Shown in pieces: positions 40,917-49,259 of a DNA stretch of 64,000 bases (position 1 is its first letter; every line of letters begins with the position of its first letter). Made by a program: the position numbers and the translations under genes. Location of the stretch: the NCBI RefSeq assembly GCF_010983895.1, contig NZ_CP048836.1, positions 248,001 to 312,000 on the forward strand, given 5' to 3'. The notes under the pieces are model-generated. The model was given only the letters and a program-made list of their open reading frames with translations. It made no database searches and had not been told where the DNA came from. Source of the DNA: Nitrogeniibacter mangrovi (GTDB taxonomy: Bacteria; Pseudomonadota; Gammaproteobacteria; Burkholderiales; Rhodocyclaceae).

Positions 40917-43016
40917 ATGACAAGAAAACGGGGCTTGCGTCAGGGCGCAGCTTTGCTCTTGGCATGCGGATGGTGCTTCGGCGCCGCCGCGGCCACCACC
41001 GATGACGATGCGGCGGACCTGCGCCAGCTCATGCAGGTGCTCGATCAGCAGACCGAGATCGCCACCAAGACACGCCTGAACGCGGACTACGTGCCCGGCC
41101 TGGTGACCGTGCTCCATGGCGAGGAGCTGGTCGAGCTGGGCGTGCGTACGGTGTGGGAAGCCCTCCGGCTGGTGCCGGGCGTGGAGCCCTCGATCGACCA
41201 GATCGGCGGCCGCCAGACCCTGGTGCGCGGCGTTGGCGGCAACTTCGCCTCCGGCAACATGAAGATCCTCCTCAATGGCCGCTCGATGAACTCGGCCCTG
41301 ACGGCCAATGCCAATCCGGTCCTGAACCTGCCGGTCGAGCTGGTCGACCACATCGAGGTGGTGCGCGGGCCGGGCTCGGCGGTGCACGGGGAGTTCGCCT
41401 ATGCCGGCGTGCTCAACGTGATCACCCGCAAGCAGGCCAGCGGCGGCTTCGTGCGCGCCGACGAACACGACACCTACACCGGCGGCGCCTTCACCAGCTG
41501 GCAGAGCGCGGACGGCCACAGCGGCGGCAGCATCAACGCGGGCGGCTGGAGCGCGCGCGGCGCCGGCGTTGATTCGGGCCGGGACGCGCTCTACAACGGC
41601 AACAACGCCATGCAGTCGGCGCTGTCCAATGCGCCGGGGCCGGTCAATGACCGTATGGAGCAGCGCTCCTTGCTGCTGGATCTCTATCACGACGCCCTGT
41701 CCCTGTCCTTCGCCTACGTCGAGGATGGTTACGGCGATCATTTCGGCACCATCAACGTCCTCGATGCGTCGGATGCGCGTGGAACCGACTACCGCAACCG
41801 GTACCTGACGCTGGGCGGCAAGGGGCAGTGGACGCTGGCCGAGGATCTGCGCGGCAGCGTGTCGCTGGGCTGGCAGCAGTTCCAGAACAGCTACGACATC
41901 CGGATGTTGCCGAAGGGTTTTGTCTGGCTCAACTCCGCCTACGCGCCCACCCTGTTGCCGGACGGCTACACCTCCGAGGGCTTCTACGAGGAGCAGCGCC
42001 TGTCGGCCGATGCCGATCTGGTGTGGGAAGGGTGGACGAATCATCGCCTGCTGATGGCGCTGGGGGCGACACGCATCGACGTCCAGGACGCCTGGCAGCG
42101 CAACAACATCGACCCGGTGACCAAGAACCCGCTCGCCGTGCCGACCCGGTATGTCCACGACGACGGCATTCCCTGGCCCGGCGAGGATCGCAGCCGTCGC
42201 ATCCTCAGCGTCACGATGCAGGACGAATACCGCGCCAGCGAGGACGTGACCGTCACCGCCGGGGTTCGTTACGACGACTACGACGACTTCGGCCACAACA
42301 CCTCGCCGCGGCTGGCGGCGGTGTGGCGGCTCGGGCGGCATCACATCCTCAAGGCGCAGTACGCCGAGGCGTTCCGCCCGCCCGCGTTCTACGAGACCGC
42401 CTTCAAACCCGACCTGCGGCCCGAGACCATCCGCACCGCAGAGCTCGCCTACGTGTTCAAGTCGCCTGATACCGAGTTCCGGCTGATCGGCTTCCGCTCG
42501 GGACTGCACGACCTGATCGTCGACGCCGGCATTCTCGGCTTCGACAACGTGAATGACGTGCGCACCCGCGGGGTGGAGATGGAACTGCGCCAGCGCTTCG
42601 GCCCGCGCTGGCGGCTCGAGGCCAATCTGAGCCTGGCCGACAGCACCCAGGTCGATACGGGTGACCCGGTGGCCGGCGCCGCCGACCGGCTGGCCAACGT
42701 GGTGCTGCGCTACGAGCCCGGCGCGCACCAGGACTACGCCCTGTGGGTGCGCCATGTGGGCGACCGCGAACGCGAGTCCAACGATACCCGCGAGTCCCTC
42801 TCCGGCTATCAGACCGTCGACCTGAGTGCCAACATCGGCCTGCCGGGCGTGCATGCGGCGACGGTTCGGTTCGGGGTGCGCAACCTCTTCGATCGCCAGA
42901 TCCGCTACCCGGCGCCCATGACGCTGGACTGGCTCGGTGGCGCGATCCCGTCGTATGCGAACGACTATCGCCAGCCCGGCCGCACCGGCTGGATCGAGCT
43001 GTCCTGGTCGCTCTGA
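40917..43016 (+). CDS. TonB-dependent outer-membrane receptor
   Basis: A 699-residue receptor. A signal peptide (RQGAALLLACGWCFGAAAA) is followed by a plug domain with ELGVRTVWEALRLVPGVEPS, RQTLVRGVGGNF and the VELVDHIEVVRGPGSAVHGE segment. The rest is a 22-strand type barrel ending GWIELSWSL, with the aromatic C-terminal residue expected for BAM insertion, here followed by Leu. ATG at 40917 has AGGGG just before it. No TonB box could be placed with confidence. The plug sequence is not that of a known siderophore receptor. The following four genes probably belong to the same unit, suggesting that ligand uptake is tied to signalling. Confidence 0.88.
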   Translation: MTRKRGLRQGAALLLACGWCFGAAAATTDDDAADLRQLMQVLDQQTEIATKTRLNADYVPGLVTVLHGEELVELGVRTVWEALRLVPGVEPSIDQIGGRQTLVRGVGGNFASGNMKILLNGRSMNSALTANANPVLNLPVELVDHIEVVRGPGSAVHGEFAYAGVLNVITRKQASGGFVRADEHDTYTGGAFTSWQSADGHSGGSINAGGWSARGAGVDSGRDALYNGNNAMQSALSNAPGPVNDRMEQRSLLLDLYHDALSLSFAYVEDGYGDHFGTINVLDASDARGTDYRNRYLTLGGKGQWTLAEDLRGSVSLGWQQFQNSYDIRMLPKGFVWLNSAYAPTLLPDGYTSEGFYEEQRLSADADLVWEGWTNHRLLMALGATRIDVQDAWQRNNIDPVTKNPLAVPTRYVHDDGIPWPGEDRSRRILSVTMQDEYRASEDVTVTAGVRYDDYDDFGHNTSPRLAAVWRLGRHHILKAQYAEAFRPPAFYETAFKPDLRPETIRTAELAYVFKSPDTEFRLIGFRSGLHDLIVDAGILGFDNVNDVRTRGVEMELRQRFGPRWRLEANLSLADSTQVDTGDPVAGAADRLANVVLRYEPGAHQDYALWVRHVGDRERESNDTRESLSGYQTVDLSANIGLPGVHAATVRFGVRNLFDRQIRYPAPMTLDWLGGAIPSYANDYRQPGRTGWIELSWSL

Positions 43017-43061
43017 GCGGTCCGATCTCACGCCAAAGAACAACAAGAGGACATCCCCCCA

Positions 43062-48343: not shown

Positions 48344-49259
48344 GTCGAAACCACGCGTGCTGATCGTCGACGACGAGCGCTCGAACATCAACATCCTGGG
48401 CAACCTGCTGGTGCCCGAGTTCGACGTGGTGGTGGCCACCGACGGTGCCGCCGCGCTCAACCGCGCCTTCGCCGAGCAGCGGCCCGACCTGATCCTGCTC
48501 GACGTGATGATGCCGGGCATGGACGGCTACGAAGTGTGTCGCCGCCTCAAGGCCGACGAGGCGACGCGCGACATCCCCGTGATCTTCATCTCCGCCATGG
48601 GCGAGGAGGACGACGAGGCGCTGGGCTTGCAGATCGGCGCGGTGGACTACGTGACCAAGCCGTTTTCCCCGCCCATTCTCAAGATGCGCATCCGCACCCA
48701 TGTGGAACTCAAGCGCCTGCGCGACCACTGGCAGCGCCTGTCGACGGTGGACGGGCTCACCCAGATCGCCAACCGGCGCGCCTTCGACGAGGCCCTGGCC
48801 TCGGCCTGGCGCTGCGGCATCCGGCTTGGGCATCCACTGGCGCTGATCCTCGCCGACGTGGACCATTTCAAGGCCTACAACGACCACCACGGCCATGCCG
48901 AGGGCGACCGCTGCCTGTACACCGTGGCGCAGGCGCTGGCGGCACAGACCAAGCGCGCCTGCGACACCGTCGCCCGCTATGGCGGAGAGGAGTTCGTGTG
49001 CCTGATGCCGGGTGTGGACCTGGCCGGCGCCCAGACCGTCGCGCAGCGCATGGGCGCGGCGGTGGCGGAAGCGGCGATTCCTCACCGCCACCCGATCGTG
49101 GACGGCACGGTCAGCATCAGCATCGGCGTCGCGGTGGTGGTGCCGAGCGTCGACCTGGCGCCGGAGGTACTACTGGTCGAGGCCGACCGCCGTCTCTACG
49201 AGGCCAAGCGGGCCGGGCGCAACCGCCTGTGTGCCGGATCGGTGGATGCGCCCGGCTGA
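48336..49259 (+). CDS. REC-GGDEF response regulator (diguanylate cyclase)
   Basis: A 307-residue protein that should make c-di-GMP on phosphorylation. The receiver has VDDERSN at the N terminus and LILLDVMMPGMDG with Asp about 56; TKPFSPPILKMRIRTHVELK ends the domain. The GGDEF domain begins DGLTQIANRRAFDEAL and has the active-site motif RYGGEEFVCL. RACD, five residues before GGEEF, fits the RxxD product-inhibition site. The active form is therefore likely. ATG at 48336 overlaps the kinase gene by eight bases. This is a PleD/WspR-type output for the kinase; dmpR begins 105 bases later. Confidence 0.93.
   Translation: MDESKPRVLIVDDERSNINILGNLLVPEFDVVVATDGAAALNRAFAEQRPDLILLDVMMPGMDGYEVCRRLKADEATRDIPVIFISAMGEEDDEALGLQIGAVDYVTKPFSPPILKMRIRTHVELKRLRDHWQRLSTVDGLTQIANRRAFDEALASAWRCGIRLGHPLALILADVDHFKAYNDHHGHAEGDRCLYTVAQALAAQTKRACDTVARYGGEEFVCLMPGVDLAGAQTVAQRMGAAVAEAAIPHRHPIVDGTVSISIGVAVVVPSVDLAPEVLLVEADRRLYEAKRAGRNRLCAGSVDAPG

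Follow-up and report, generated by a model that had tools for sequence, protein, structure and literature searches.

The window analysed here is a 64,000-nucleotide stretch of the Nitrogeniibacter mangrovi chromosome (contig NZ_CP048836.1, positions 248,001 to 312,000 of the forward strand), and it contains a cassette of five consecutive plus-strand genes. These encode, in order, a TonB-dependent receptor, a fusion of a CruF-like membrane domain with an AttH/CrtC-type double lipocalin, a divergent YfiR-like periplasmic protein, a hybrid histidine kinase and a REC-GGDEF response regulator. The five genes remain together in related genomes, and we read them, with moderate confidence, as a signalling relay that would run from the outer membrane to cyclic di-GMP (c-di-GMP) in the cytoplasm. 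The host genome is 4.24 Mb long, is assembled as a single contig and belongs to the same genus as G060, another genome of the comparison. The features of the locus are the following (positions in the window; aa, amino acids).

40796..40820, plus strand: possible terminator hairpin 3′ of lipA (folding energy -14.3 kcal/mol)
40917..43016, plus strand: TonB-dependent receptor, 699 aa (PF07715, 60.4 bits; PF00593, 141.5 bits)
43062..44996, plus strand: fusion protein, 644 aa (PF04240, aa 21-192; PF07143, aa 346-503; PF17186, aa 510-633)
45055..45615, plus strand: divergent YfiR-like (DUF4154) periplasmic protein, 186 aa (PF13689, 22.7 bits)
45602..48343, plus strand: hybrid histidine kinase, 913 aa (periplasmic domain without a Pfam name, PAS, HisKA, HATPase, REC, Hpt)
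48336..49259, plus strand: REC-GGDEF response regulator, 307 aa (PF00072, PF00990; GGEEF motif and RxxD I-site)

An earlier note, made from the sequence alone, had described the same five genes, separated by gaps of 45 and 58 bases and then overlapping by 14 and 8 bases. Both the coordinates and these spacings are confirmed, and the families that it named agree with the Pfam results, with refinements for the fusion and the YfiR-like gene. The terminator that it placed before the cassette is plausible but not strong: the hairpin after lipA has a z of -1.99, is matched or exceeded in folding by 11 of 200 shuffled sequences and was not listed by the pattern scan. No sigma-70-like promoter was listed by the pattern scan within 40600-49500.

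Conservation of the cassette

The linkage of the five genes is beyond chance. Fourteen other loci with a full-length fusion were compared (L033-L044, L060 and L061), and at 11 of these the receptor, the fusion, the YfiR-like protein, the kinase and the REC-GGDEF protein are encoded in the same order and on the same strand, the exceptions to the five-gene set being L039, L060 and L061. The earlier note had regarded a lack of such linkage as fatal to its single system; in relatives, however, the receptor and fusion genes do have the kinase genes as neighbours, and the system passes this check. The junctions are also conserved: with start codons chosen by script, the YfiR-like and kinase genes overlap by 14 bases at 11 of the 12 five-gene loci, the window included (8 bases in L044), and the kinase and REC-GGDEF genes by 8 or 11 bases at 11 of the 12. 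Upstream, lipA is present at 5 of the 11 other loci.

The distribution of the fusion is narrow. Among 150 genomes of the family it is present in full length, with at least 71% identity, in six; one further genome (G095) carries the lipocalin half only, at 60%, and the remaining matches do not exceed 38%. A scan of named genomes gave 11 loci. The phylum sample contained the fusion in 3 of 398 genomes, the window's own counted, together with a fourth match (G181) that consists of the lipocalin alone, adjoining an FtsX permease. A search of 300 genomes of the order found it in no other.

Outside this group the arrangement loosens. At L060 and L061, in two genomes of another family, the trio of receptor, YfiR-like protein and kinase is retained, with the fusion next to it on the opposite strand. 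On a Nitrospinota contig (L039) a fusion with 49% identity lies beside a receptor, where the contig ends. As separate observations, a DDE transposase gene interrupts the receptor gene of the distant cassette at L060:412-4153, and the neighbours of the fusion in the Nitrospinota metagenome-assembled genome (L039:2386-8052) are a lycopene-cyclase-like, a DUF6989 and a geranylgeranyl-reductase-like gene, the first and the last scoring below cut-off.

The gene that follows the cassette in the window (49323-51047) starts 63 bases after it and encodes a dmpR-like sigma-54 activator with XylR_N and V4R domains, which reaches 606 of 999 bits against the MobR model. This proximity is what would favour a role of the cassette in a phenol or aromatic programme under dmpR, as suggested earlier. 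However, the other five-gene loci, 11 in number and covered for 1.8-5.7 kb of downstream sequence, gave no dmpR match. Hence, the link to an aromatic signal is not supported, a tie between cassette and dmpR was rejected, and membership in such a programme appears extremely improbable.

The fusion protein

The second gene is the new and truly odd component of the cassette. Its product carries a CruF-like Caroten_synth domain (PF04240; its 70.6 bits exceed the cut-off) embedded in a membrane part for which ten helices are predicted, followed by a CrtC/Lipocalin_9 double lipocalin. Hydropathy and the positive-inside count, with basic residues at 12.8 in the odd loops and 4.5 in the even ones, would place the lipocalin in the periplasm. 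In the CruF-like half, residues H27, E50, Y61, Y63, D115, D119, W130, N143 and W147 are kept in 8/8 rows of an alignment that includes three stand-alone PF04240 proteins and from which a fourth such protein (L143), lacking a match to the model, was left out. PF04240 itself is rare: ten of the 150 family genomes contain it, and in six of them it is the fusion.

The nearest solved relative of the lipocalin is the AttH-like protein 2ich (NE1406; E 2.2e-35). The available part of PMC4717167 names H239, W241, Y266 and D268 as the key residues of CrtC; placed on the CrtC of Roseobacter litoralis by motif and spacing and then aligned to the fusion, these positions fall on Y471, S473, W497 and D499. 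When profiles were compared, one CrtC matched the fusions at 0.5%. The fusion was consequently rejected as a true CrtC, with one of the four key residues kept. The lipocalin had previously been called carotenoid-hydratase-like: the double-lipocalin families are indeed matched, but the domain is AttH-like rather than CrtC proper, and a second, CruF-like membrane domain accompanies it. For the CrtC and CruF families alike, the available text of the same paper states that there were no catalytic data as of 2015.

Matches to either half also occur elsewhere. An unannotated locus on a Klebsiella plasmid (L152, LR890742.1) gave a weak tblastn match to the CruF-like half (24.7%, E 4e-4). In L062:8597-12349 and L049:1341-4990, AttH-type genes lie directly 3′ of FtsX/MacB-type or ATP-binding-cassette (ABC) permease genes, and this proximity suggests another context for AttH, namely lipid transport.

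In none of 13 cassette genomes, several of which are metagenome-assembled and possibly incomplete, does a CrtI-family match exceed the curated cut-off (the highest score is 126.1 of 238.1 bits), as against 4 of 14 controls; carotenoid synthesis by the host was accordingly rejected. At E <= 1e-20 the genomes of L060, L061 and the Nitrospinota locus gave no match either; the last of these nonetheless has the lycopene-cyclase-like neighbours below cut-off. All 13 cassette genomes do contain two adjacent matches to PF00494 (squalene/phytoene-synthase-like), which we take to be HpnC and HpnD of hopanoid synthesis. Given that no CrtI match exceeds the cut-off and that this pair is present, any substrate of the fusion would more probably come from outside, or resemble squalene or hopanoids, than be a carotenoid of the host's own making. 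Separate AttH-type genes within about 4 kb of the two adjacent PF00494 (HpnC/HpnD-like) genes were seen in G115:C1:1347804-1353841 and G095:C23:7495-13502.

The receptor and its possible ligand

In the first gene product, Pfam reports only the Plug and TonB barrel domains at E <= 1. No N-terminal STN signalling domain was found at this threshold, and a FecA-type receptor was rejected on that ground. The nearest solved chains are those of the colicin I receptor and BtuB. Some indication of the ligand comes from the TOL_0244 family (NF053590), whose cut-off is 645 bits. In L039 the receptor next to the fusion belongs to it, with 703.1 bits, and the receptor beside an AttH gene in L045 falls just short, with 615.3 bits; the window receptor, with 78.9 bits, is not a member. 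According to the available part of PMC6304351, TOL_0244 is up sevenfold on n-C28 alkane relative to Tween 80. These relationships give an indirect hint of a ligand of alkane or isoprenoid type, and the hydrophobic ligand that had been proposed for the system is plausible. The fusion may provide a handle on this ligand, since both of its domains come from families that hydrate isoprenoids or bind lipids, and its hosts gave no CrtI-type desaturase over the cut-off.

The YfiR-like protein and its wider gene setting

Profile comparisons identify the third gene product. All 11 members of alignment A3 match PF13689 at E <= 0.01, the relative in L061 exceeds the cut-off of that family with 36.0 bits, and hhalign aligns the group with 29 canonical DUF4154 proteins at 96.4% (E 1.2e-9). 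Its predicted membership in the YfiR (DUF4154) family thus holds at the profile level. No cysteine position is common to the 33 YfiR relatives listed, and searches against solved structures gave nothing useful for this protein.

The YfiR type of the cassette extends beyond the fusion, and the genome counts given for it are lower bounds. It occurs in at least 6 of the 150 family genomes, the same six that carry the fusion, and in at least 22 of the 398 phylum genomes; in G140 a second copy lies in a cassette without the fusion. Twenty further places with this type (19 phylum loci and the second G140 copy) were compared, and a kinase match lies in the stretch in 20/20. Canonical DUF4154 proteins, over the cut-off in 29 of 61 family genomes, show a similar setting. 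Specifically, in a sample of 30 loci out of 41 places listed, a TonB receptor gene lies directly upstream in 27 (none was seen at L123 and L136, and different genes stand there in L140). Downstream, 29 of the 30, all but L141, encode a kinase, receiver, GGDEF or CHASE8 protein. The window genome itself contains a second module of this kind, without the fusion (L046, C1:3411000-3430000, minus strand), formed by a receptor, a DUF4154 protein, a CHASE8 hybrid kinase and a REC-PAS-GGDEF-EAL protein.

The receptor-YfiR-sensor core is therefore older and wider than the cassette, and with no fusion at any of the 20 other places, the core can be regarded as a general unit and the fusion as a lineage-specific addition. 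TonB receptors are mostly regarded as importers. At the DUF4154 loci of this family, a receptor gene usually stands immediately ahead of genes for a YfiR-like protein and a kinase or cyclase, an arrangement that points to a broad, little-studied route by which an outer-membrane event leads to a c-di-GMP or phosphorelay output.

The same distribution bears on a different reading, in which receptor and fusion work as a pair that takes up and converts a hydrophobic substrate. The genes for YfiR, kinase and cyclase would then only report envelope or substrate status, the fusion standing outside signalling. Such a pair would explain why the cassette YfiR type does without the fusion in all 20 other places, and why the Nitrospinota fusion is accompanied by a receptor gene, a lycopene-cyclase-like gene and a geranylgeranyl-reductase-like gene, no YfiR or kinase having been seen there. 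It does not sit well with the exact coincidence of fusion and YfiR type in the six family genomes, nor with a differently built signalling cassette (L045) in which the AttH part recurs. In this variant a REC-GGDEF protein, a receptor nearly of TOL_0244 type, an AttH protein without CruF, a canonical DUF4154 protein and a CHASE8 kinase are encoded together; its AttH is 60% identical to that of the fusion and independently supports the addition of an AttH-type protein to the signalling unit. On balance, we regard an uptake pair outside signalling as a possible but rather unlikely explanation.

The kinase and the predicted diguanylate cyclase

The periplasmic domain of the hybrid kinase has no Pfam name, and no CHASE8, HAMP or GGDEF domain was reported in this protein. 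Its cysteines C131 and C134 are invariant in 11/11 rows, and the resulting periplasmic CxxC is a new feature. The kinases encoded beside the cassette YfiR type fall into two classes (loci L094-L112, L060, L061 and L093): the motif is present in the window kinase and in 19 of 19 kinases of the close class, and is absent from all 13 kinases of the diverged class. Since no histidine follows it in the sequences listed, the motif bears little resemblance to a c-type haem site.

An invariant cysteine pair raises the possibility that the cassette mainly senses periplasmic redox, the CxxC opening and closing under the influence of the YfiR-like protein and the receptor. The division between the two kinase classes would fit such a function, as would the location of the cysteines: the YfiR relatives of the cassette lack a conserved set, while in Pseudomonas aeruginosa, according to the available part of PMC3375315, there are four conserved cysteines in YfiR but none in the periplasmic part of YfiN. 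Redox sensing, however, leaves the receptor and the fusion unexplained, and a CxxC can equally be structural or metal-binding, so that we hold this reading to be improbable.

The H-box, GGEEF and RxxD motifs and the Hpt histidine are present at 12 of 12 loci. By its GG[DE]EF and I-site motifs the REC-GGDEF protein is predicted to be an active diguanylate cyclase, and the motifs suggest a putative phosphorelay of the type kinase-REC-Hpt-REC. The c-di-GMP output proposed in the earlier note finds its motifs in place, and it is on these that the proposal stands.

A proposed relay from the outer membrane to c-di-GMP

Taken together, it seems reasonably probable that the five genes make up a single operon and that their products relay a signal from the outer membrane to the cytoplasm. 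A hydrophobic ligand would be sensed under the control of the receptor, and phosphate would be passed to a GGEEF cyclase. In this scheme, the TonB-dependent receptor would bind or import the ligand, and the inner-membrane fusion, with its CruF-like ten-helix part and its periplasmic AttH/CrtC-type lipocalin, would receive it and bind or hydrate it. The YfiR-like protein would restrain the periplasmic domain of the kinase until displaced or altered by the receptor or the ligand. Following this release, the hybrid kinase with its periplasmic CxxC would pass phosphate from His to Asp to His and on to the receiver (REC) of the cyclase, changing c-di-GMP. Linkage, families, motifs and co-occurrence are read directly from the sequence and the topology is predicted; from these we infer the ligand class, the enzymatic activity, the contact between YfiR and kinase, the phosphotransfer route and the sign of the response.

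Several observations weigh against this relay. The YfiR-like protein of the window stays below the PF13689 cut-off of 24.9 bits, and the periplasmic domain of the kinase compares with the YfiN-type CHASE8 domain at 8.1% only. The fusion retains just the Asp, the proposed proton donor, among the CrtC key residues, and having no AttH or CruF match at the 20 further YfiR-type places it is dispensable for the core; only 13 of these places have a match to the receptor model, which was built from the window-type cassette and can miss other receptors. No REC-GGDEF match lies within the fetched stretches of L060 and L061, and the fusion locus of L039 shows no YfiR or kinase, though the end of the contig was reached. 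The alkane hint is indirect, as the window receptor lies outside the TOL_0244 family. Finally, the distances among the five proteins over 12 loci do correlate, with r 0.84-0.95, but these values stand without an unlinked control.

A more specific version of the relay is that the fusion hydrates, at the inner membrane, an imported unsaturated isoprenoid or alkene, and that the product, rather than the original molecule, is read by the YfiR-like protein and the CxxC kinase and converted into a c-di-GMP signal. We consider this version doubtful. If true, it would represent a case of enzyme-coupled surface sensing, in the form of a receptor - enzyme - repressor - phosphorelay circuit.

Comparison with known systems

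In FecA/FecR cell-surface signalling, an outer-membrane receptor is coupled to a regulator. The cassette differs in that its receptor lacks the STN domain and in that no FecR or extracytoplasmic-function (ECF) sigma factor gene is found among the five genes. The TOL_0244/TOL_0243 pair (NF053590 and NF053591 of NCBIfam), with neighbouring locus tags, likewise joins a TonB receptor to a YfiR-like protein. The L039 receptor belongs to it and the L045 pair scores just below both cut-offs, while the window receptor is far from it and the window YfiR-like protein has no NCBIfam match at E <= 0.1. OmpS of Alcanivorax dieselolei, too, is a TonB receptor that reportedly perceives a hydrophobic ligand and sets off signalling (Wang and Shao 2014, cited in the available part of PMC6304351); the output described there is alkane chemotaxis.

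Regarding the fusion, the carotenoid 1,2-hydratase CrtC and AttH/DUF2006 (NE1406, 2ich) belong to the same double-lipocalin families; relative to CrtC, three of the four key residues are replaced. With CruF, the bisanhydrobacterioruberin or gamma-carotene hydratase, the fusion shares E50, D115 and D119, acids that all the aligned PF04240 proteins have, and it remains far under the three NCBIfam equivalog cut-offs (45.3 of 154.7, 31.8 of 300 and 29 of 400).

The closest parallel for the core is YfiBNR (AwsXRO, TpbB, DgcN), in which a YfiR-family periplasmic protein is likewise encoded beside a membrane sensor. The available text of Malone et al. 2012 (PMC3375315) describes YfiR operons in which sensor or hybrid kinases replace the YfiN cyclase, and divergent Yfi operons without YfiB whose outputs are GGDEF-EAL, Hpt or sensor kinase proteins, including a Thauera example with a hybrid kinase. 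YfiN combines a periplasmic PAS/CHASE8 domain, HAMP and GGDEF in one protein, whereas in the cassette kinase and REC-GGDEF protein are separate. YfiB is an OmpA-like outer-membrane lipoprotein; no OmpA-like domain was found among the five genes, to which the search was limited, and the TonB receptor occupies its place, the term 'TonB' being absent from the main text of PMC3375315 as available. In addition, the four conserved cysteines which that text gives for P. aeruginosa YfiR are not kept in the cassette protein, and the cassette adds the CruF-AttH fusion. The open-licence literature of PubMed Central (PMC) gave no paper that describes a unit of receptor, YfiR and kinase, and a description elsewhere is possible. 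The view that no described system has this combination must therefore be narrowed: the exchange of YfiN for a kinase and the pairing of receptor and YfiR were already known, from the available part of PMC3375315 and from NCBIfam, respectively, but the five-gene combination with the fusion seems to be new. The core varies a type of circuit that had been described before, and what is new in the cassette is the enzyme-like fusion.

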